Positions 32,572 to 63,400 of a stretch of 64,000 bases of DNA are shown piece by piece (positions within the stretch are counted from its first letter, which is position 1; every line of letters begins with the position of its first letter). This DNA is from Aquihabitans sp. G128 (GTDB lineage: Bacteria > Actinomycetota > Acidimicrobiia > Acidimicrobiales > Iamiaceae). The notes under the pieces were generated by a model that had not been told where the DNA came from, did no database searches, and saw only the letters and a list, made by a program, of their open reading frames with translations. The DNA is taken from contig NZ_CP077604.1 in the NCBI RefSeq assembly GCF_019048865.1, positions 682,001 to 746,000 on the forward strand. The letters are read 5' to 3'. The translations under genes and the position numbers were made by a program.

Positions 32572-33172
32572 GCCCGCCGCCGGCACCCCGGCGCCCGGCC
32601 ACGTCGTGCTCGTCGGGCTGATGGGGTCGGGCAAGACCACCGTCGGCAAGAAGGTGGCCAAGCTGGTCGGCCAGCGCTTCGTCGACGCCGACGTCGAGCT
32701 CGAGGCCCGCACCGGCCGCTCCGTCGCCGAGTGGTTCGCCGACGGCGAGGCGGCGTTCCGCACCGCCGAGGCCGACCTCCTGGCGGACCTGCTCGCCGGC
32801 GCCGAGCCGCTGGTCGTGGGGGCCGGCGGGGGCGTGGTGGTCCTCCCGGCCAACCGGGAGGCCCTTGCCGCACCCGGCTCCACGGTGGTCTACCTGCACG
32901 GCGAGCCGGCGTTCCTCGCCTCGCGCGCCCAGGCCAAGCCCCACCGCCCGCTGCTGGCCGACGCCGACCCGATCGAGGTCTTCGAGCGCCTCCACGCCGA
33001 GCGCGACCCCTGGTACCGCGAGGTGGCCGACGCCGTGGTGGAGGTGCGCCCGGCCCACGAGGCGGGGGAGAAGCCCAAGTGGCGGCTGGCCGAGCAGGTC
33101 GTCGAGGCGCTGCTGGCGCTGGGCGTGATCGACCCGTCCCAGGTCACCGACGTCGAGGCGGTCCGGTCGTGA
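32564..33172 (+). CDS. aroK: Shikimate kinase
   Basis: Phosphorylates shikimate with ATP. It has a P-loop GLMGSGKTTVGKK at about residues 19-31, the substrate Asp in FVDADVELEARTG, and the GAGGGVVV segment. The 202 residues exceed the usual 170 because of a short Pro-rich head and a C-terminal helix (WRLAEQVVEALLALGV). Stop overlaps the aroB GTG. Confidence 0.95.
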   Translation: MPEPAAGTPAPGHVVLVGLMGSGKTTVGKKVAKLVGQRFVDADVELEARTGRSVAEWFADGEAAFRTAEADLLADLLAGAEPLVVGAGGGVVVLPANREALAAPGSTVVYLHGEPAFLASRAQAKPHRPLLADADPIEVFERLHAERDPWYREVADAVVEVRPAHEAGEKPKWRLAEQVVEALLALGVIDPSQVTDVEAVRS

Positions 33173-34169
33173 TCGAGCTCAGCGTCCCCCTCGGCGATCG
33201 CACGTACCCCGTCCTGGTCGGCGCCGGCGCCCGGCACCGCCTGCTCGAGGTGCTGCCCGTCGGCGTCGAGCGCGTGGCGGTGGTGACCCAGGCGTCGATC
33301 CCCGTCGACGTCGACCCCGGCGTCGAGCACCAGGTCTTCACCATGGCCGAGGGCGAGCACGGCAAGGACCTCGGCACCGTCGAGGACCTGTGCCGGGACT
33401 GGGCCCAGTGGGGCCTCACCCGCGGCGACTGCGTGGTGGCGGTGGGCGGCGGCGTGGTCACCGACACCGCCGGCTTCGCCGCCGCCGTCTACCACCGCGG
33501 CGTCCCCGTGGTGCACGTGTCCACCACCCTGCTCGGCCAGGTCGACGCCGCCATCGGCGGAAAGACCGGCGTCAACCTGCCCGAGGGCAAGAACCTGGTG
33601 GGCGCCTTCTGGCAGCCGGCCGCCGTGATCTGCGACACCGACGTGCTGGCCACCCTGCCGCCGCGGGAGTACCGCAACGGCCAGGGCGAGATGGCCAAGT
33701 ACGCCTTCCTGGGCGTCGACCGGCTGACCGACCTGCCGCTCGACGAGGCCGTCGCCGCCTGCGTCGCCTGCAAGGCCGAGGTGGTGGCCTCCGACGAGCG
33801 CGAGGGCGGCCGGCGGGCCATCCTCAACTACGGCCACACCCTGGGCCACGCCCTGGAGACCGCCGGCTCCTACGACCTGCGCCACGGCGAGGGCGTGGCC
33901 ATCGGGCTGGTCTACGCCGCCGAGCTGGCCCGGCGCCTCGGCCGCATCGGCGCGGGCGCGTGGCCGAGCACCGCAAGGTCGTCGGCGGCTACGACCTGCC
34001 CATGCACCTGCCGCCGGGCTCCGACCCGGACCAGCTGATCGCCCTCTTCGCCCGCGACAAGAAGGCCATCGGCGGCACCACCTTCGTGCTCGACGGCCCT
34101 CGCGGGGTCGAGCCGGTGAAGGTCACCGATCGCGCCCTGTTGCTCGACGCCCTCGAGGCCCTCCGATGA
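33169..34169 (+). CDS. aroB: 3-dehydroquinate synthase (one frame break)
   Basis: NAD- and metal-dependent enzyme that closes the first ring of the shikimate pathway. GDCVVAVGGGVVTDTAGFAAAVYHRG, GKTGVNLPEGKNLVG and the metal-site segment NYGHTLGHALE are in the first frame. At about 33948-33961 (GCGCGGGCGCGTGG) the frame shifts by -1. Adding one base gives VAEHRKVVGGYDLPMHLP and the intact C-terminal domain. The stop overlaps the aroQ ATG. As the pathway is otherwise complete, I read the break as a consensus error. Confidence 0.92.
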
Positions 34170-37607: not shown

Positions 37608-37633
37608 CGGCCTCGCGTCGGCCCTGCTACCTT
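37604..37633 (+). promoter_or_regulatory. Promoter of the pyrR-pyrB-pyrC operon
   Basis: CTGACG (37604-37609) as -35, an 18-nt spacer, and TACCTT (37628-37633) as -10. Transcription is expected near 37640, right at the start of the PyrR hairpin. Confidence 0.5.
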
Positions 37634-37638
37634 CGGGG

Positions 37639-37678
37639 CCTGACCGTTAACCGGGTCCCGTGAGGCCCAACGGACAGG
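37639..37678 (+). promoter_or_regulatory. PyrR-binding hairpin in the pyrR leader
   Basis: The lower stem CCTG-A-CCGT pairs with ACGG-A-CAGG (one A-A mismatch). The upper stem GGGTC pairs with GGCCC (one T-G pair) and closes a CCGTGA hexaloop, which fits the known PyrR consensus CNGNGA. The 3' side contains the CAGGA ribosome site, so PyrR-UMP binding should hide it. The same element is found before carA at 42968-43008. Confidence 0.8.
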
Positions 37679-37715
37679 AAGCGAGCCGCAGTGGCCGAAC
37701 GAGAACGACGCCAAG

Positions 37716-37734
37716 CGCCCCCGTACGGGGGGCG
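37716..37734 (+). other. GC hairpin at the pyrR start
   Basis: CGCCCCC, GTAC, GGGGGGCG. With five instead of six G this would be a perfect 18-nt palindrome, and the frame from GTG 37691 would then run directly into PyrR. It is the counterpart of the carA leader terminator but lacks a T-tract. Confidence 0.45.
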
Positions 37735-37757
37735 TCTTCGCGCCCCGGACCCGCGTC

Positions 37758-38258
37758 ATGGACAGCGCCGACGTGCAGCGGGCGGTCTGGCGCATGGCCC
37801 ACGAGATCATCGAGGCCAACAGCGGCACCGAGTCGGTGGTGCTGGTGGGCCTCCAGACCGGCGGCCTGCCGGTGTCGGAGGCGGTGGCCGACGCCCTGAC
37901 CTCGATCACCGGCCACGAGACCGAGGTCGGCAGCCTCGACGTCGCCTTCTACCGGGACGACATCGGCCTGCGCCCGGTGCTGCCCGAGGCGGTCACCCAC
38001 ATCCCGTGGAACCTCGACGGCCGCACCGTGGTGCTCTGCGACGACGTGCTCTTCACCGGGCGCACCATCCGTGCCGCCCTGAACGCCTTGTCCGACTACG
38101 GGCGCCCACGAGCGGTGCAGCTCCTCGTGATGGTCGACCGCGGCCACCGCGAGCTGCCCATCCGCCCGGACTACGTGGGCAAGAACCTGCCCACCCGGCG
38201 AGACGAGGTGGTCGACGTCCACGCCGACGGCGTCGACCTCGGGGAGATGCTGCGGTGA
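37758..38258 (+). CDS. pyrR: Bifunctional pyr regulator / uracil phosphoribosyltransferase PyrR
   Basis: Binds UMP/UTP and pyr mRNA, and has uracil phosphoribosyltransferase activity. From ATG 37758 it has 166 residues: VMD then RMAHEIIEANSG, LDVAFYRDDIG, and the PRPP loop VVLCDDVLFTGRTIRAAL near residues 90-107. Most PyrR proteins have some 10 more N-terminal residues. GTG 37691 with an AGGAA site would supply them (MAERERRQAPPYGG and on) if one G of the G6 run at 37727-37732 were removed. I give the uninterrupted ATG form. Overlaps pyrB by 4 nt. Confidence 0.93.
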   Translation: MDSADVQRAVWRMAHEIIEANSGTESVVLVGLQTGGLPVSEAVADALTSITGHETEVGSLDVAFYRDDIGLRPVLPEAVTHIPWNLDGRTVVLCDDVLFTGRTIRAALNALSDYGRPRAVQLLVMVDRGHRELPIRPDYVGKNLPTRRDEVVDVHADGVDLGEMLR

Positions 38259-39220
38259 AGCACCTGCTCGGGATCGAAGACCTGGGCGGGGCAGAGGGCA
38301 TCGACGAGGTCATGCGGCTGACGGACTCCTTCGTGGAGGTGTCGGGCCGCAACATCCCGCGGGTCCCGGCCCTGCGGGGCAAGACCGTCGCCTGGCTGTT
38401 CTACGAGGACTCCACCCGCACCCGGCTCTCGTTCGAGACCGCCGCCAAGCGGCTCACCGCCGACACCATGAACTTCTCGGTGAGCTCGTCCTCGGTCAAG
38501 AAGGGCGAGTCGCTCCGCGACACCGCCCGCACCATCGAGGCCATGGGCATCGACGCCATCGTCGTGCGCCACGCGTCGGCCGGCGCCCCGCACCGCATCT
38601 CGCGCTGGGTCGACGCCGCCGTCATCAACGCCGGCGATGGCTGGCACCAGCACCCCACCCAAGCCCTGCTCGACACGTACTCGCTGCGCCAGCGGTGGGG
38701 GAGCCTCGACGGCCGCCACATCGCCATCGTCGGCGACATCAAGCACAGCCGGGTGGCCCGCTCCGACGTGTGGGCCTTCACCGCCATGGGCGCCGAGGTG
38801 ACCCTGGTCGCGCCGCCCACGCTGCTGCCGCCCAGCCTCGAGGGGTGGCCGGTCAAGGTCAGCCACGACCTCGACGCCGTGCTGCCCACCGTCGACGCCA
38901 TCTACCTCCTGCGCATGCAGCGCGAGCGCATGACCGAGGCGCTGCTGCCGTCGCTGCGGGAGTACACCGCCTGCTTCGGGCTCACCGCCCGGCGGGTCGA
39001 CGCGCTGCGCGACGACGCCCTGGTGCTGCACCCCGGGCCCATGAACCGCGGGGTCGAGATCGCCGCCGAGGTGGCCGACCTGCCCCGATCCCTGATCCTG
39101 GACCAGGTCCGCAACGGCGTGGCCGTGCGGATGGCCGTCCTCTACCTGCTCCTCGGCGCCGGCTCCGACCTCGTGGCTGCGCCGGCGCCCGAACCCCTCG
39201 AAGGAACCCCCCGTGGCTGA
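38255..39220 (+). CDS. pyrB: Aspartate carbamoyltransferase catalytic subunit
   Basis: Condenses carbamoyl phosphate with aspartate. The 321 residues include the carbamoyl phosphate loop EDSTRTRLSF (near 51-60), SSVKKGESLRDT, HPTQALLDTYS, and GDIKHSRVARSDV. GTG start overlapping the pyrR stop. No pyrI regulatory subunit follows, as usual in actinobacteria. Overlaps pyrC by 8 nt. Confidence 0.96.
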   Translation: MKHLLGIEDLGGAEGIDEVMRLTDSFVEVSGRNIPRVPALRGKTVAWLFYEDSTRTRLSFETAAKRLTADTMNFSVSSSSVKKGESLRDTARTIEAMGIDAIVVRHASAGAPHRISRWVDAAVINAGDGWHQHPTQALLDTYSLRQRWGSLDGRHIAIVGDIKHSRVARSDVWAFTAMGAEVTLVAPPTLLPPSLEGWPVKVSHDLDAVLPTVDAIYLLRMQRERMTEALLPSLREYTACFGLTARRVDALRDDALVLHPGPMNRGVEIAAEVADLPRSLILDQVRNGVAVRMAVLYLLLGAGSDLVAAPAPEPLEGTPRG

Positions 39221-40496
39221 CGCCGGATCGCTGGTCATCAAGGGCGGGCAGGTGGTCGACGCCACCGGCGAGCGCACCGCCGACGTCGTGGTCGTCGACG
39301 GTCGGATCACCGCGGTCGGCACCGGGCTCAGCGCCGACCGCACCCTCGACGCCACCGGCTGCATCGTGGCCCCTGGCCTCGTCGACATCCACAGCCACCT
39401 CCGCGAACCCGGCAAGGAGGAGGCCGAGACCGTCGAGACCGGCGCTCGGGGTGCCGCGCTGGGCGGCTACACCGCCATCCTCGCCATGCCCAACACCACG
39501 CCAGCGATCGACAGCGCGGCCGTGGTCCAGCAGGTGCTGGAGCTGGGTCGGCCCGCCCCGTGCGACGTGTTCAGCTCCGGCGCGATCACCGTGGGCCGCG
39601 GTGGCGAGCAGCTGGCGCCGATGGCCGAGATGGCCGCCCTCGGCGTGCGGATCTTCACCGACGACGGCGCCGGCGTGCAGGACAACGGCCTCATGCGCCG
39701 GGCCATGGAGTACGCCAGCGGGCTCGGCGTGACCTTGGCCCAGCACTGCGAGGACGACGCCCTCTGCGGCGGCGGCCACATGCACGAGGGCGAGTGGTCG
39801 GCACGGCTGGGCATCCCCGGCCAGCCTGCGGAGGCCGAGGAGCTGATGGTGATGCGCGACATCGCCCTGGCCCGCCTCACCGGCTGCCGCATCCACTTCC
39901 AGCACCTCAGCACCGCCGGCTCGGTGGCCATGGTCCGCGCCGCGATCGCCTCGGGCCTGCCGGTCACCGCCGAGGCCACGCCGCACCACTTCACGCTCAC
40001 CCACGCCGAGTGCCAGGGCTACGACCCCGTGTTCAAGGTCAACCCGCCACTGCGCACCGCCGCCGACGTCGACGCCGTGAAGGGCGCGCTGGCCGACGGC
40101 ACCATCGGGATCATCGCCACCGACCACGCGCCGCACGCCCCCGAGACCAAGGAGCTGCCCTTCGACCAGGCGCCGCCCGGGATGCTCGGCCTCGAGACGG
40201 CCCTGGCCCTGGCCCTCACCGAGCTGGACCTCCCGGTGCAGCAGGTCCTCGCCGCCCTCTCCTGGAACCCGGCCGCCGCCATCGGCGTCGGCGACCTCCA
40301 CGGCCTGCCCGTCGAGGCCGGCAACCCCGCCAACCTGTGCGTGATCGACCCGGAGGCCACCTGGACGGTGCGGGGCTCGGCCATGGCCAGCCGCAGCACC
40401 AACACCCCCTTCGAGGGCCGGGAGCTGCGCGGCAAGGTCCGCCACACCGTCCTGCACGGCGAGCCCGTCGTCGTCGCCGGCGAGCCCCAGCGCTGA
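39213..40496 (+). CDS. pyrC: Dihydroorotase
   Basis: Zinc amidohydrolase that closes the dihydroorotate ring. The 427-residue type I enzyme has the metal ligands His60 and His62 in DIHSHLREPG, the AMPNTTPAID segment, AQHCED, EATPHHFTLT and ATDHAPH. The C-terminus STNTPFEGRELRGKV is typical. Ends the first pyr unit. The 77 nt to the convergent SDR gene show no clear terminator. Confidence 0.96.
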   Translation: MADAGSLVIKGGQVVDATGERTADVVVVDGRITAVGTGLSADRTLDATGCIVAPGLVDIHSHLREPGKEEAETVETGARGAALGGYTAILAMPNTTPAIDSAAVVQQVLELGRPAPCDVFSSGAITVGRGGEQLAPMAEMAALGVRIFTDDGAGVQDNGLMRRAMEYASGLGVTLAQHCEDDALCGGGHMHEGEWSARLGIPGQPAEAEELMVMRDIALARLTGCRIHFQHLSTAGSVAMVRAAIASGLPVTAEATPHHFTLTHAECQGYDPVFKVNPPLRTAADVDAVKGALADGTIGIIATDHAPHAPETKELPFDQAPPGMLGLETALALALTELDLPVQQVLAALSWNPAAAIGVGDLHGLPVEAGNPANLCVIDPEATWTVRGSAMASRSTNTPFEGRELRGKVRHTVLHGEPVVVAGEPQR

Positions 40497-40573
40497 CCGA
40501 TCCGAGTCGGCGTCCGGGGGGCGCGGGTGCGTCACCGGTGGGACGTGGGCGCTCCCGAGCCCGGTGGCGAGGG

Positions 40574-41386
40574 TCAGTCCTTGAGGCCGGGGTGGCGGCT
40601 GGCGAGGAGCGGGACCAACAGGGCCTTCGGCGTGAGGTGGGCGAACATGGCCGCAGCGCGGTTGGCCGGGCCGGGGATGGCCACCGGCTTGCCCTTGTCG
40701 AGCGCCGTCACGCCGACCTTGGCCACGGCCTCGGCCGACTCCCACATGAACGCCGGCAGCGCGGCCTCGGCGTCCTCCTTGGCGAAGCCGGCGGCCTCGC
40801 CGAAGCCGGTGTCGACCGGGCCGGGGCAGAGCGCGGTGGCCGCCACGCCGGTGCCCCGCAGCTCGCCGCCGAGCGAGCGGGTGTAGGAGAGGACGAACGC
40901 CTTGCAGCCGCCGTAGCCGGCCTGGCCGGGCAGCGGCTGGAACGCCGCGGTGGACGCCACGTTCAGGATGCCGCCCCGGCCCCGGGCCACCATGCCGGGC
41001 AGGAAGCGGCTGCACAGGTCGGCCACCGCCACCACGTCGACCTCGATCATCGCCATCTCGGCGGCCGGGTCGGCCTGGGCGATGGGCCCGAGGGTGGACA
41101 GCCCGGCGTTGTTCACCAGGATGTCGGGCTCGAGGCCCAGCTCGGTGACCCGGTCGAGCAGACCGGCCCGGGCGTCGCGGTCGGCGAGGTCGGTGGCGAG
41201 CACCTCGGCCCGCACCCCGGAGCCCCGCAGCTCCGCCGCGAGGTCGGCCAGCTTGTCGGCCCGGCGGGCCACCAGGGTGACCCCGTGGCCCCGGCGCACC
41301 AGCTCGCGGGCGATCTCGGCGCCGATGCCGGAGGACGCCCCGGTGACGACGGCGGTGCGGTCAGGGGCAGGCGTGGGCAGCGTCAT
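40574..41386 (-). CDS. Short-chain dehydrogenase/reductase
   Basis: A 270-residue Rossmann oxidoreductase of the DltE/YqjQ-like SDR group. It has the cofactor motif TGASSGIGAEIA, an Arg-rich beta2 end (ARRADKL) suggesting NADP, NNAG in LVNNAG, and the catalytic Ser-Tyr-Lys in NVASTAAF and GYGGCKAF. The substrate is unknown. With the downstream repeats and the aminotransferase gene it sits on the minus strand between the two pyr units and has no evident role in pyrimidine synthesis. Confidence 0.88.
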   Translation of the reverse strand: MTLPTPAPDRTAVVTGASSGIGAEIARELVRRGHGVTLVARRADKLADLAAELRGSGVRAEVLATDLADRDARAGLLDRVTELGLEPDILVNNAGLSTLGPIAQADPAAEMAMIEVDVVAVADLCSRFLPGMVARGRGGILNVASTAAFQPLPGQAGYGGCKAFVLSYTRSLGGELRGTGVAATALCPGPVDTGFGEAAGFAKEDAEAALPAFMWESAEAVAKVGVTALDKGKPVAIPGPANRAAAMFAHLTPKALLVPLLASRHPGLKD

Positions 41387-41427
41387 GGCCGCCGAGCGTA
41401 GGCGGGCCGACGCGATCGACGGACGAG

Positions 41428-41639
41428 ACGGTTCTGTCGGGGAACGGTGTTGCGTGGCGACCTGTCTCCCGACAGAACGGGGGGCCGGACGGTTCTGTCG
41501 GGAAACGGCCCGGACGGTTCTGTCGGGGGATCGTGTCGTGTGGCGACCAGCTTCCCTGACAGAACGGGTTGGGGGGACGGCCCGGACGGTTCTGTCGGGA
41601 AATCGTGCCGTGGGGCGACCTGTTCTCCCGACAGAACGG
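41428..41639. repeat. Cluster of palindromic repeat units (three hairpins plus one orphan arm)
   Basis: A 14-nt arm ACGGTTCTGTCGGG occurs four times (41428, 41489, 41514, 41586). Its complement CCCGACAGAACGG occurs three times (41468, 41554 with one extra T, 41627). Units 1, 3 and 4 are about 53 bp, each with a 26-27 nt interior containing a conserved GTGGCGACC-like core. The second forward arm has no partner. The cluster fills almost all of 41387-41648 between two minus-strand genes. No ORF of its own. Confidence 0.85.
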
Positions 41640-41648
41640 TGACGCGGC

Positions 41649-42824
41649 TCAGGCGGTGACGACGGCGTGGAGGCGGCGGACGGCCTCGTGGAGCTCGTCG
41701 ACGCTGGCGGTGGCGAAGCTGAGGCGCATCGCCGAGTGGTCCGGGGCGTCGACGCCGAACGCCGAGCCGGGGACGTAGGCCACGCCCGCGGCCACGGCGT
41801 CGAGGAGGCGGGCGGTGGCGTCGAAGCCCTCGAAGCGCGTCCAGACGAACATCCCCCCGCCGGGCACGGTGAACGGCGCGGCGTCGCCGAAGGTCTGGTG
41901 GAGGGCGTCGACGAGGCCGTCGCGGCGCTCGCGGTAGAGGGCGCGCGAGCGGTCGAGGTGCGCCGCCCGCCAGGCCGGGTCCTGGGCGAGGGCGGTGACC
42001 ACGCCCTGGCTCAGCGAGCTGGTGTGCAGGTCGGAGGACTGCTTGGCCACGATGACCGCGTCGAGCAGCCAGCGGGGTCCGGCCATCCAGCCCAGGCGGA
42101 GGCCCGGCGCGACGGTCTTGGACACCGAGCGCAGGCGCACGACGTGCTCGCTGCCGGGGCCCACCGGCCCGGGCGGGGGCGCGTCGAACCACAGCTCGCC
42201 GTAGGGGTCGTCCTCGACGACGACGAAGCCGTAGCGCTCGGCCAGCTCGGCCAGGTGCACCCGGCGCTCGGTGGAGAGCGTGGCCCCGGTGGGGTTGTGG
42301 AAGTTGGTGACGACGTAGGCCAGCTTGGGGCGCAGCCCAGCGGCGAGCCGTTCGGCCAGCACGTCGGTGCGGAGCCCGTCGCCGTCGACGGGGATGGCGG
42401 TGAGCTGGGCGCCGTGGCTGCGCAGGGCCTGCAGCGAGCCGAGGTAGTCGGGGTCGCCCACCACCACGGGGTCGCCGTCGTCGACGAGCACCCGGCTGAC
42501 CAGGTCGAGGCCCTGCTGCGAGCCGGTGGTGACCACCAGGTCCTCCGGCTCGACCTGGGCGTCGGTCCACCCGGCGAGCGCGGCGCGGCATGCCGGGTCA
42601 CCGTCGGTGCGGCCGTACTGCACGGCGTCGGTCCCGCCCTCGAGCGCAGCCAGCGCAGCGGCGCGCAGCTCGGCCATGGGGAACGACGACGGCGCCGGGA
42701 TCCCGCCGGCCAGGGAGATCACGCCGGGGGCGCTGGCGTGCACGAGGATGTCGCGGATGGTGGACGAGGTGGCGCCCTGGGCACGACGGGACAGCAGGAG
42801 GGCGGGGTCGGCGGTTCCGGTCAC
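41649..42824 (-). CDS. PLP-dependent aminotransferase (class I/II, 2-aminoadipate/aromatic type)
   Basis: A 391-residue fold-type I aminotransferase. It has ISLAGGIPAPSSFP near the N-terminus, VTTGSQQGLDLVSRVL, FHNPTGATLS, DDPYGELWF and the PLP Lys in SVSKTVAPGLRLGWMAGP. This pattern fits the LysN/ARO8/MocR-catalytic-domain group, which act on 2-aminoadipate, aromatic or branched-chain amino acids. The substrate is not fixed. GTG 42824 is chosen because TACCGT lies 6 nt upstream (leaderless). Confidence 0.85.
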   Translation of the reverse strand: MTGTADPALLLSRRAQGATSSTIRDILVHASAPGVISLAGGIPAPSSFPMAELRAAALAALEGGTDAVQYGRTDGDPACRAALAGWTDAQVEPEDLVVTTGSQQGLDLVSRVLVDDGDPVVVGDPDYLGSLQALRSHGAQLTAIPVDGDGLRTDVLAERLAAGLRPKLAYVVTNFHNPTGATLSTERRVHLAELAERYGFVVVEDDPYGELWFDAPPPGPVGPGSEHVVRLRSVSKTVAPGLRLGWMAGPRWLLDAVIVAKQSSDLHTSSLSQGVVTALAQDPAWRAAHLDRSRALYRERRDGLVDALHQTFGDAAPFTVPGGGMFVWTRFEGFDATARLLDAVAAGVAYVPGSAFGVDAPDHSAMRLSFATASVDELHEAVRRLHAVVTA

Positions 42825-42830
42825 CGGCCG

Positions 42831-42836
42831 ACGGTA
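42831..42836 (-). promoter_or_regulatory. -10 element for the aminotransferase gene
   Basis: On the minus strand, TACCGT then CGGCCG then GTG: 6-nt spacing and no ribosome site. The same CGGCCG spacer follows the -10 of phzF. Confidence 0.45.
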
Positions 42837-42956
42837 GCAACGCCCGAGCCGCTCGCCGGGGCTCCGTTTCGCCTCGACCGGCCCGCTCGAGGGCACCGCC
42901 GCCTGGTCCGGGGCCCTGGACCCTCGAAGGCTTGGGGGAGCGGGCCGGTCGGCTGG

Positions 42957-42962
42957 TAGCTT
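42957..42962 (+). promoter_or_regulatory. -10 element for carA-carB-pyrD-pyrF
   Basis: TAGCTT, 5 nt before the PyrR hairpin, the same arrangement as at pyrR. A weak TTGGGG at 42932 could be the -35 (19-nt spacer). Confidence 0.5.
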
Positions 42963-42967
42963 CCTCT

Positions 42968-43008
42968 CCTGACCGTGAAGTGGGTCCAGTGAGGCCCACA
43001 CGGACAGG
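42968..43008 (+). promoter_or_regulatory. PyrR-binding hairpin in the carA leader
   Basis: Lower stem CCTG-A-CCGT with ACGG-A-CAGG, upper stem GGGTC with GGCCC, and hexaloop CAGTGA, again fitting CNGNGA. The sequence is almost the same as the pyrR leader element. The 3' arm overlaps the AGGAG ribosome site of the leader ORF at 43018. Confidence 0.82.
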
Positions 43009-43017
43009 AGCGCAGCA

Positions 43018-43089
43018 ATGGCACAGCCCACCTCGTCACCCACGCCCCCAGCCGGGGGCTTTTCTTTTGCCCGGGAGGCGGTGGCGTGA
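43018..43089 (+). CDS. carA leader ORF (23 codons)
   Basis: ATG 43018 follows AGGAG by 7 nt. The 23-residue frame begins [14 protein letters not shown] and ends in a TGA that overlaps the carA GTG (GTGA at 43086-43089). The terminator at 43044-43068 is inside the frame, so a translating ribosome would disrupt it. Its ribosome site overlaps the PyrR hairpin. Likely a regulatory leader peptide rather than a functional protein. Confidence 0.6.
43044..43068 (+). terminator. Intrinsic terminator inside the carA leader
   Basis: Stem GCCCCC/GGGGGC with an AGCC loop, followed by TTTTCTTTT. This is a canonical Rho-independent terminator, placed 18 nt before the carA start and inside the leader ORF. 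T-tracts are otherwise rare in this window. Confidence 0.8.
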
Positions 43090-44305
43090 TCCGCGGCGCG
43101 CTCCTCGTGCTCACCGACGGCACCACGTTCGAGGGCGAGGCCCTCGGGGCCACGCCGGCGAACGGCATCGCCACCGGTGAGGTGGTGTTCAACACCGTGC
43201 TGCACGGCTACCAGGAGGTCATCTCCGACCCCTCCTACGCCGGCCAGATCATCACCTTCACCTATCCCCACATCGGCAACTACGGCGTGACCCCGCACGA
43301 CGACGAGGGCCGCCGGCCCTTCTGCCGCGGCGTGGTGGTCCGCGAGCCCGCTCGGCGCCGCTCCAACTGGCGCGCCACCGAGGACCTGGACGCCTGGCTG
43401 GTGCGCCACGGCATCCCCGGCATCGGCGGGGTCGACACCCGGCGGCTCACCCGCCACATCCGCGACACCGGCGCCACGCCCGGTGCCTTCGGCGCCCTGG
43501 GCGAGGCGCCCGACGGGACCACCGTGACCGAGGCGTCCTTGCTGGCAGCGGCCACCGCCGAGCCCGGCACCGACGGCGTCGACCTGGTGGCCCAGGTCAC
43601 CACCGACGCCTCCTACGTGGTGGGCAGCGACGCCCCGTTCCGCGTCGTCGCCTACGACTTCGGCATCAAGGCCACGATCCTGCGCCACCTGGCCGGGTTC
43701 GCCAACGTCACCGTGGTGCCCGCCTCCACGCCGGCGGCCGAGGTGCTGGCCCACCACCCGCACGGCGTCTTCCTCTCGAACGGGCCCGGCGATCCCGAGG
43801 CCGTGCCCTACGCGGTGGAGGCCACCCGCGAGCTGCTGGGCAAGGTCCCGGTCTTCGGGATCTGCCTCGGCCACCAGATCCTGGGCCTGGCGCTCGGCGC
43901 CCAGACCGTGAAGCTGCCCTTCGGCCACCACGGCGGCAACCACCCGGTCCGCCGCCTGCGCGACGGCAAGGTCGAGATCACCAGCCAGAACCACAACTTC
44001 GCCATCGACCCCGACACGCTGGTCGACGCCGAGGTCACCCACGTCAACCTGAACGACGGCGTGGTCCAGGGCATCAAGGCCACCAAGGTGTCGGCCTTCT
44101 CGGTCCAGCACCACCCGGAGGCTGGCCCCGGCCCGCACGATGCCAGCTACCTCTTCGACGACTTCGCCCTGGCCATGGCCGGGTTCCACGCCGACGCCGG
44201 CCTGCCGACGGCCCCCAAGCCGGAGCTCGTCTGGGGCCAGGAGCCCGACGGCCTCGTGACCGGGCACCTGCAGCGCAGCGACGCCGACCACGGAGGCCAG
44301 GCCTG

Positions 44306-44306
<1 letters not shown>
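43086..44306 (+). CDS. carA: Carbamoyl phosphate synthase small subunit
   Basis: Glutaminase subunit that feeds ammonia to CarB. The 406 residues have the N-terminal [31 protein letters not shown], and the class I glutamine amidotransferase domain with catalytic Cys260 in [13 protein letters not shown] and the His-Glu pair in [14 protein letters not shown]. The GTG overlaps the leader-ORF stop, and GGAGG lies 9 nt upstream. Regulation by PyrR through the leader is likely. Stop overlaps carB (TGATG). Confidence 0.96.
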
Positions 44307-47652
<3,346 letters not shown>

Positions 47653-47656
<4 letters not shown>

Positions 47657-48633
47657 GGCGCCTGTGCCGCGGTGCCGGGGGCGGGCGCGACGGTGCTGCC
47701 GCCGTGCCCGACCTGCCCACCCGCGTCGGCTCGATCGAGCTGCGCAACCCCGTCATGACGGCGTCCGGCACGGCAGGCCACGGCGCCGAGCTGGCGTCCT
47801 ACCTCGACCTCGAGGCCCTCGGTGCCGTGGTGACCAAGTCGGTCTCCGCCGACCCCTGGCCCGGCAACCCGGCGCCCCGGGTCCACCAGGCCACGGCCGG
47901 CATGCTCAACGCCGTCGGCCTCCAGGGGCCCGGCGTGGCGGCCTGGCTGGCCGACGAGCTGCCCGACCTCATCGCCACCGGCGCCACCGTCGTGGCCTCG
48001 ATCTGGGGCCGGTCCGTCGACGACTACCGCCGGGCCGCCGACCTGCTGGCCGACGCCCCGGGCCAGGTGGTGGCGGTCGAGGTCAACCTGAGCTGCCCCA
48101 ACGTCGAGGACCGCTCGGGCATGTTCGCCCACTCCGCCGAGGCCACCGAGGCGGCCATGGCGGTCACCGCCGGCTGCGGCCGCCCGCGGTGGGCGAAGCT
48201 CAGCCCGAACGTCGGCGACCTGGTGCCCATCGTCGACGCGGCCGTCCGTGGGGGCGCCGAGGCGGTCACCCTGGTCAACACCGTCATGGGCATGGCCATC
48301 GACCCCGCCACCCGGACCTACCGGCTCGGCAACGGGGGAGGGGGCCTGTCGGGCCCGGCCATCCACCCGGTGGCCGTGCGCGCCGTCCACGACGTCGCGG
48401 CGGCCCGCCCCGACGTGGCGATCGTCGGCGCCGGCGGCGTCCTCGACGGCGAGACCGCTGCCGAGCTGCTGGTGGCCGGCGCCTCGGCGGTGCAGGTCGG
48501 GACGGCCACCTTCGCCGACCCGCGGGCTCCCGGTCGGGTGGCGGCAGAACTGGTTGACTGGTGCCGGCGACACGGCGTCGAGCACGCCGACGAACTGATC
48601 GGAGCGATCCATGGACACGACCGCCGCAGCTGA
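47653..48633 (+). CDS. pyrD: Dihydroorotate dehydrogenase, class 1B-like
   Basis: FMN enzyme converting dihydroorotate to orotate. The sequence [45 protein letters not shown] and NLSCPN resembles PyrDB (class 1B, cytoplasmic), which normally needs a PyrK partner. No pyrK is in the window. The GTG at 47653 overlaps the carB stop and has AGGAG upstream. A shorter start at GTG 47704 ([10 protein letters not shown]) fits the family N-terminus better and is a real alternative. The 3' end overlaps pyrF by 23 nt. Confidence 0.92.
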
Positions 48634-49336
48634 GACGCCGCTGATCCAGGCCGACCACGACGTGCGGCGTCGACTGGCGCTGGTCATCGACGTCGACGAC
48701 CTGGTGGTCGCCCGCCGCCTCGCCCAGACCCTGCGCCCGTGGTTCGGCGTCGCCAAGGTGGGCCTCGAGCTGTTCAGCGCCGCCGGTCCGGACGCCATCG
48801 AGACGATGGCCGAGCTGGGCTACGAGGTCTTCGCCGACCTCAAGCTCCACGACATCCCCACCACCGTGGGCAAGGCCTCGCGGGTCCTGGGCTCGCTGGG
48901 CGCCAGCTACGTGACCATGCACGCGTTCGGCGGGGTCGACATGCTCCGCGCCGGGGTCGAGGGCCTGCGCGCCGGCGCCGAGTCCGCCGGCCTCCCCGAG
49001 CCCACCGCCCTCGCGGTGACCGTGCTCACCAGCGACGGCGGGGCCCCGCCCCACATCCTCCCCAAGCGGGTGGCCACCGCCATCGAGGCCGGCTGCGGCG
49101 GTCTGGTGTGCGCGGTCGGCGACGTGCGCGAGGCCCGCCTGCTGGGCCCGGCGCTCACCATCGTCACGCCGGGCATCCGTCCGGTCGGCTCGCCCACCCA
49201 CGACCAGGCCCGGGCCGCCACGCCCCAAGAGGCGTTCGACGCCGGTGCCGACCTGCTCGTCATCGGCCGCGCCGTCACCGCAGCGCCGGACCCGGTGGTC
49301 GCCGCCGCCGAGCTGGTCGAGTCGCTCACCCTGTGA
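48611..49336 (+). CDS. pyrF: Orotidine 5'-phosphate decarboxylase
   Basis: Converts OMP to UMP, the ligand of PyrR. The 241-residue protein has the catalytic DLKLHDIPTTVGKA (Lys and Asp), LALVIDVDD for the first Asp and TPGIRPVG for the phosphate loop, the class I pattern. The N-terminal extension (about 15 residues) overlaps pyrD. Last gene of the second pyr unit. pyrE is not in the window. Confidence 0.95.
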   Translation: MDTTAAAETPLIQADHDVRRRLALVIDVDDLVVARRLAQTLRPWFGVAKVGLELFSAAGPDAIETMAELGYEVFADLKLHDIPTTVGKASRVLGSLGASYVTMHAFGGVDMLRAGVEGLRAGAESAGLPEPTALAVTVLTSDGGAPPHILPKRVATAIEAGCGGLVCAVGDVREARLLGPALTIVTPGIRPVGSPTHDQARAATPQEAFDAGADLLVIGRAVTAAPDPVVAAAELVESLTL

Positions 49337-63273: not shown

Positions 63274-63400
63274 GCCCCCTCGCGGGGCTGGGTGCAACTC
63301 CCAACCGGCGGTACAGCCCGCGAACCCGGACCTCACGGTCCGGGCCGATCCGGTGAGATCCCGGAGCCGACGGTGATAGTCCGGATGAGAGCGAGGGTGC
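63274..63400 (+). ncRNA. FMN riboswitch (RFN element)
   Basis: P1 pairs GCCCCCTCGC (63274-63283) with GCGAGGGTGC (63391-63400). Inside are the conserved RFN pieces: GGGTGCAACTCCCAACCGGC, GGTACAGCCCGCGA, then CCGGTGAGATCCCGGAGCC, GACGGTGATAGTCCGGATGAGAG. A hairpin follows at 63403-63422 (AACGCGC/GCGCGTT), with another small one (CGTT/AACG, 63431-63444) next to the ribosome site. This points to control of translation of ribD by FMN. Strong T-tracts are absent. Confidence 0.95.

Follow-up and report, generated by a model that had tools for sequence, protein, structure and literature searches.

PyrR-type hairpins and terminator-bearing reading frames at the pyrimidine genes of Aquihabitans sp. 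G128 and its relatives: a probable ribosome-gated attenuator

The pyrimidine genes of the actinobacterium Aquihabitans sp. G128 lie within a 64,000-nt stretch of contig NZ_CP077604.1 (positions 682,001 to 746,000, here called the window and numbered from its first letter). They form two units, pyrR-pyrB-pyrC and carA-carB with pyrF farther downstream, each headed by a hairpin resembling those bound by the regulator PyrR. The locus raises the question of what such a hairpin controls. An earlier note, made from the letters alone, took PyrR with uridine monophosphate (UMP) to hide a ribosome site at both units, a translational mode in place of the Bacillus antiterminator switch. It seems likely instead that each unit starts with a PyrR attenuator gated by the ribosome, which would itself be the antiterminator. 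Control would then probably have two steps, the regulator hiding a ribosome site and a terminator in the first codons behind it ending the transcript, and many relatives appear to share this arrangement.

Hairpins of the window and the carA leader

The hairpins have the coordinates, stems and loops that the earlier note gave them. The one before pyrR (37639..37678, forward strand, as for all features of the two units) and the one before carA (42968..43008) share a lower stem CCTG-A-CCGT/ACGG-A-CAGG and an upper stem GGGTC/GGCCC, extended at carA to GTGGGTC/GGCCCAC. PyrR-binding hairpins carry a hexaloop of consensus CNGNGA closed by an upper stem of UCC/GG type. The loops CCGTGA (37658-37663) and CAGTGA (42987-42992) fit this pattern, as the note had claimed; the upper stems close them in the expected way, lower stems are present, and both hairpins stand 5' of pyrimidine genes in a genome that encodes PyrR. 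They are regarded as candidate PyrR-binding sites. A −10-like element begins exactly 30 nt before each loop (TACCTT, 37628..37633, at pyrR; TAGCTT, 42957..42962, at carA), a position at which TANNNT occurs in 79 of 117 pyrR leaders and 14 of 14 carA leaders.

Folding and a covariance model, both suggested in the earlier note, recover the two sites. The hairpins form at −18.9 (pyrR) and −22.5 (carA) kcal/mol; the carA hairpin is unusual, with an equally stable fold in 2 of 200 shuffles, and the pyrR hairpin by itself is not (28 of 200). In the organism's own 4.94 Mb genome a search with the exact pattern gives these two sites only. So does the model, built from 91 leaders (89 hand-picked from 112 distinct ones, plus both window sites), with E values of 4.3e-14 and 2.6e-9 and the next match at 0.75. 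Over the 91 leaders 89.1% of pair cells are paired, and two-sided changes occur in 115 cells, compared with 44.8 in shuffles; the least conserved part is the outermost CCTG/CAGG, each of whose four pairs fails in 19–35 leaders. Rfam searches of both window leaders gave only matches far under the family cut-offs. The PyrR model RF00515 detects neither site and has no match at E 1 in the genome, with 5 of 14 control genomes positive.

The earlier note also held that the 3' arm of each hairpin includes the ribosome site of the next frame. At carA this overlap is present (Shine-Dalgarno AGGAG, 43006..43010, bases 1–3 within the hairpin), but carA is not the frame that follows. Going 3' from the hairpin, the earliest frame to have a ribosome site is an open reading frame (ORF) of 23 codons beginning at ATG 43018 (43018..43089), whose stop TGA overlaps the GTG start of carA (43086..44306; GTGA, 43086-43089). 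Within this leader ORF lies an intrinsic terminator, GCCCCC-AGCC-GGGGGC-TTTTCTTTT (43044..43068), with 8 T among the 9 bases after the stem. A terminator scan of 5.9 kb reported just two terminator-like sites, this one and another on the minus strand, where 0.7 would be expected.

The same design is found throughout the hairpin-bearing carA leaders of the family. Upstream DNA was compared at 20 places, the window and 19 in 18 family genomes (L080, which is not at a carA start, was excluded, and G004, G005, G007, G011 and G016 were not read at carA). Fourteen of the 20, from 13 genomes, have a hairpin 5' of carA; at the other six (G012, G013, G017, G018, G019, G021) the stretch resembles a pyrC end by eye. 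All 14 have an ORF of 22–31 codons starting 23–26 nt after the loop, and in all 14 its stop TGA overlaps the GTG, ATG or TTG that opens the carA frame. A terminator passing the strict rule described below is present in 13 (the exception is G014), compared with 0.2 (maximum 2) in dinucleotide shuffles. At least two stem types occur, GCCCCC and GCCCTCTGCC, and all Aquihabitans copies of carA that were read pass. Judged by eye, the leader peptides share only PP/GG and Phe positions, which follow from the stem and the U-tract.

Two other ideas about this leader were dropped. Sensing by stalling on the leader peptide was considered in view of its Pro-Pro codons and a nearby efp, and the peptides visibly differ among carA leaders. 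A possible antiterminator in the window leader, GTGGGT/ACCCAC, was picked out by eye, and not every other carA leader has the partner. One genome (G015) has two carA copies (L066, L067), each with hairpin, leader ORF and terminator, representing either a duplicate or a mixed assembly.

Terminators in the first codons of pyrR

For pyrR, 135 leaders were read, from 80 loci (the best 80 of 473), 54 genomes and the window, some genomes occurring twice; the 54 are those of 56 genomes with a match besides the window, less two with partial matches (G018, G021). By script, 131 of them have the hairpin. Leaving out the window (broken frame), G007 (assembly gap), duplicates, and leaders with N or no start gives 121 distinct leaders. 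The strict rule asks for a stem of at least 7 and at least 5 T within the first 26 codons. A terminator of this kind lies inside the start of pyrR in 69 of the 121, compared with 2.3 (standard deviation 1.5, maximum 6) when the same peptides are written with randomly drawn synonymous codons. A laxer rule gives 78, against 17.0 (maximum 28) in the draws; a rule with 4 T and 5 pairs proved too lax (94 observed, 51 expected) and was replaced by these stricter ones. In 63 of the 69 the 5' arm begins 23–25 nt from the start codon, and in many leaders the terminator covers approximately codons 8–18.

The N-terminus of PyrR in these relatives has a conserved MAERERRxxPPYGGVFVAR-like stretch, and its codons are biased where the U-tract falls. 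GTT encodes the Val preceding the N-terminal Phe in 65 of 92 cases and the Val following it in 52 of 82, compared with 133 of 2043 inside the gene, and the Phe itself is TTT in 47 of 116, compared with 27 of 238. The stem also covaries: over 110 distinct stretches, anchored on the N-terminal Phe codon with or without a terminator and not chosen by pairing, there are 44 double-change cells, compared with 13.4 (maximum 21) in shuffles. Because of these three signs, the excess over synonymous draws, the GTT and TTT codons at the U-tract and the two-sided changes in the stem, the pyrR terminator appears to be maintained as nucleic acid and not merely as peptide. Residues 2–6, which read AERER in 91 of the 121 leaders, with 56 DNA spellings, are conserved as protein; by eye, AERER is also kept in leaders without a terminator. 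Three records (L086, L156, L094), titled Bifidobacterium breve and Acidobacteria, have pyrR leaders of Acidimicrobiales type and are possibly mislabelled metagenome-assembled genomes.

The window's own pyrR has a weaker version of this arrangement. The overlap of hairpin and ribosome site described by the earlier note is again present (Shine-Dalgarno-like AGGAAG, 37676..37681, at the 3' end of the hairpin), but the frame that follows is not continuous with pyrR. It starts at GTG 37691 (37691..37757), and its codons match the MAERERRxxPPYGGVF of relatives; it is out of frame with pyrR because the window has 6 G at 37727-37732 where relatives have 5. As assembled, this strain is without the in-frame start that relatives use, and the first in-frame ATG gives a pyrR of 37758..38258. 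In the same codons is a hairpin CGCCCCC-GTACG-GGGGGCG followed by a weak U-tract TCTTC (37716..37739), apparently what is left, or a weak version, of the terminator that relatives have within pyrR; the stretch 37700-37745 folds with a z of −2.5.

The extra G was seen in none of the other relatives' genomes compared, of which G007 could not be judged at an assembly gap. The assembly is a single contig with 92% completeness. A second frame, that of aroB (32731-34169), seems broken near its 3' end: the DHQS_C match ends at 126 of 144, and the remainder reads by eye in another frame, yet the protein of that frame has no Pfam match. With two such breaks, an assembly indel in pyrR is plausible. Because of the weak U-tract and the extra G, termination in the window's own pyrR is uncertain.

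Distribution and gene context

A covariance model of leaders from the order (R1) matched 78 of the 149 class genomes and 20 of 197 from a sample of the phylum. A broader one (R2, 51 leaders, with 98.8% of cells paired and 79 two-sided cells compared with 22 in shuffles) had matches at E 0.01 in 224 of the 396 genomes from the phylum, a count in which strict filters lose weak sites and near-limit matches may be chance. Sixty-eight leaders outside the order were read: 20 of the 26 R1 class matches, 8 R1 phylum matches, and 40 R2 matches chosen by hand, mostly one or two per family. Within at most 110 nt from about the ribosome site, 23 of the 68 have a strict terminator, compared with 0.4 (maximum 2) in shuffles.

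As sorted by a script that mis-chose at least one ORF (L180), 31 of these leaders sit directly on the gene, six of them with a terminator; 25 have a short leader ORF, 11 of these with a terminator, which falls within the chosen ORF in 10; and the remaining 12, six with a terminator, were left unsorted. In nine of the 25 (L173, L290 and L291 among them) the ORF ends in a stop that overlaps the start of a PyrR-like frame. In-gene terminators of different sequence, located at the beginning of pyrR, occur in L184-L186, L193, L194 and L200. Leader-ORF and in-gene versions are therefore seen in other orders and classes of Actinomycetota, and judging by these leaders in-gene, leader-peptide and terminator-free forms coexist across the phylum. 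PyrR-type hairpins were also found 5' of a carB-like frame (L269) and of carA-like frames (L272, L273, L203, L211, L292).

Gene names in the two window units are based on Pfam matches. PyrR (Pribosyltran) has as its closest solved relative 1ufr, a pyr mRNA-binding attenuation protein (E 1.1e-51), and also matches 1non and 1a3c. It is followed by pyrB (38255..39220) and pyrC (39213..40496). In the second unit carA is followed by carB (44306..47656) and, farther on, pyrF (48611..49336; OMPdecase); from the translations, a putative pyrD lies between these two. Elsewhere in the window there is a flavin mononucleotide (FMN) riboswitch at 63274-63400 (105.8 bits). An intergenic stretch at 41414-41639 contains three repeats of approximately 70 nt with inverted arms GTTCTGTCGGG/CCCGACAGAAC, of which the genome has eight exact-arm copies at five places.

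Proposed mechanism, alternatives and precedents

Of the 69 pyrR leaders with a strict terminator, the 61 whose hairpin is at the usual distance were folded singly, over the stretch that opens with the hairpin and closes with the terminator. The minimum-energy fold contains the terminator in 60 of the 61 and both structures in 46. If exactly the terminator pairs are disallowed, the median loss is 6.6 kcal/mol (1.2–10.3), and the PyrR hairpin is retained in 45 of the alternatives. Because the terminator folds stably and the PyrR hairpin mostly stands alongside it, no antiterminator of the Bacillus type stands out in this single-sequence folding of relatives' pyrR leaders. An untranslated transcript would therefore terminate by default, with a close-following ribosome the likely preventer. 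To this extent the earlier note was right to set aside the Bacillus switch; the purely translational mode that it put forward is not supported in that form, given the carA terminator and those inside relatives' pyrR.

The proposed sequence of events is as follows. The transcript would begin at or next to the PyrR hairpin, the 3' arm of which runs into the first ORF's ribosome site. At low UMP, PyrR would be off the hairpin, and a ribosome could load, trail RNA polymerase into the first 20 or so codons and occupy the terminator arms, so that transcription goes on; at carA it would end at the stop overlapping the carA start and could re-initiate there. When UMP is plentiful PyrR-UMP would hold the hairpin, no ribosome would load, and the terminator would fold and stop transcription. 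At carA, as well as before pyrR in certain other classes, the ribosome-shielded ORF would be a leader peptide; for many members of the order it would be pyrR's own start. The most economical reading is thus of a translational block converted into transcription termination. On a broader scale the balance tips slightly toward ribosome-gated PyrR attenuation being old and widespread in Actinomycetota, with the first codons of pyrR encoding both the N-terminus and the gene's own terminator, the module able to be copied to other genes as a terminator-bearing leader peptide, as at carA, and lineages switching among in-gene, leader-peptide and terminator-free versions.

Several observations weigh against this proposal. 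The strict rule is failed by 52 of the 121 leaders of the order, a set weighted to near relatives, and by 45 of the 68 outside it; among 20 further leaders of the same order, from the class survey and outside the other counts, eight have a terminator and 12 do not. In the window's genus pyrR has kept its hairpin while its U-tract has decayed, two of the nine relatives tested passing, and the terminator scan does not report the hairpin in the window's own pyrR, with its weak TCTTC. The stretch with the carA terminator is ordinary in folding energy (80 of 200 shuffles). Stem pair types in pyrR number 16, not above shuffles (maximum 18), stem arms slid by one column still give 25–30 double-change cells, and the shuffle and synonymous controls leave relatedness among leaders in place. 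The PyrR hairpin is absent from 15 of the 61 minimum-energy folds, and the cost of forbidding the terminator, 1.2–10.3 kcal/mol, may leave other structures open to some leaders.

Some of these observations would suit purely translational repression, in which PyrR-UMP only hides the ribosome site and the GC-rich hairpins are a by-product of coding PPxGG. It accounts for the overlap of hairpin and ribosome site, for the 25 leaders outside the order that the script placed on a gene without a strict terminator and for the 12 of 20 within it, and is at its most tenable at the window's pyrR. Same-peptide synonymous draws, however, yield 2.3 terminators where 69 are observed, and neither the GTT/TTT bias at the U-tract and the stem covariation nor a terminator in all but one of the 14 carA leader ORFs is expected from it, so that it is considered unlikely as a general explanation.

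Rho-dependent termination or mRNA decay, with the untranslated leader exposing RNA and the stem-loops stabilising 3' ends or blocking nucleases, is less likely still. In Mycobacterium tuberculosis an Mbox over a small upstream ORF acts with Rho-dependent termination (PMC12810186), but conserved U-tracts directly 3' of the stems are a sign of intrinsic termination. Rho can nevertheless add to termination where U-tracts are weak, as at the window's pyrR. A Bacillus-type attenuator, in which PyrR binding disrupts an antiterminator and frees the terminator and the ribosome plays no part, is the least probable of the three: hairpin and terminator do both lie 5' of carA, and some folds are without the PyrR hairpin, but the terminator is nearly always formed, usually together with that hairpin, costs a median of 6.6 kcal/mol to forbid, and an RNA-only switch needs no ORF around it with a stop overlapping the gene start.

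The ribosome-gated attenuator favoured here has a forerunner. In the pyr operon of Thermus strain ZO5, Van de Casteele and co-workers are said to have proposed in 1997 that, with PyrR and no antiterminator, the translating ribosome prevents the terminator. Here too a terminator lies in an ORF or in first codons behind a PyrR hairpin, at the window's carA and in relatives' pyrR. As far as the reported features go, the differences are that here many members of the order have the terminator in pyrR's first codons, and that the carA leader stop overlaps the gene start. For Mycobacterium smegmatis, Fields and Switzer reportedly described in 2007 a translational repression that works by masking the following frame's ribosome site in the PyrR hairpin, with neither terminator nor leader ORF. 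The overlap of hairpin and first ribosome site is found here too, but the window's carA has both a terminator and a leader ORF. Bacillus pyr attenuators (RF00515) share the hexaloop hairpin, the intrinsic terminator and a related PyrR (1non, 1a3c), and differ in that here folding gives no antiterminator, RF00515 does not match and an ORF spans the terminator.

A parallel outside PyrR is the B12 riboswitch of M. tuberculosis ppe2 (PMC11260477). There too a sensor controls an upstream ORF with a stop/start overlap, in that case AUGA, at which re-initiation takes place, but the sensor is an RNA aptamer and not a protein, and the passages covered describe no intrinsic terminator of its own. No description of PyrR with terminator-bearing ORFs in Actinomycetota was found in the literature, including passages of PMC2965389 and PMC3766115, which is weak evidence of absence as subscription journals were scarcely covered.

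If the proposal is correct, a switch presumed to be translational would become a transcriptional one, at sites which the Rfam PyrR model misses, and a terminator would have been retained inside protein-coding sequence through selection on synonymous codons. Natural comparisons are available among relatives, in which the terminator that follows this hairpin is strong, weak or absent. The Thermus proposal said to date from 1997 could be tested across many lineages, and it may be necessary to treat as regulatory the beginning of pyrR or small ORFs before pyrR or carA.

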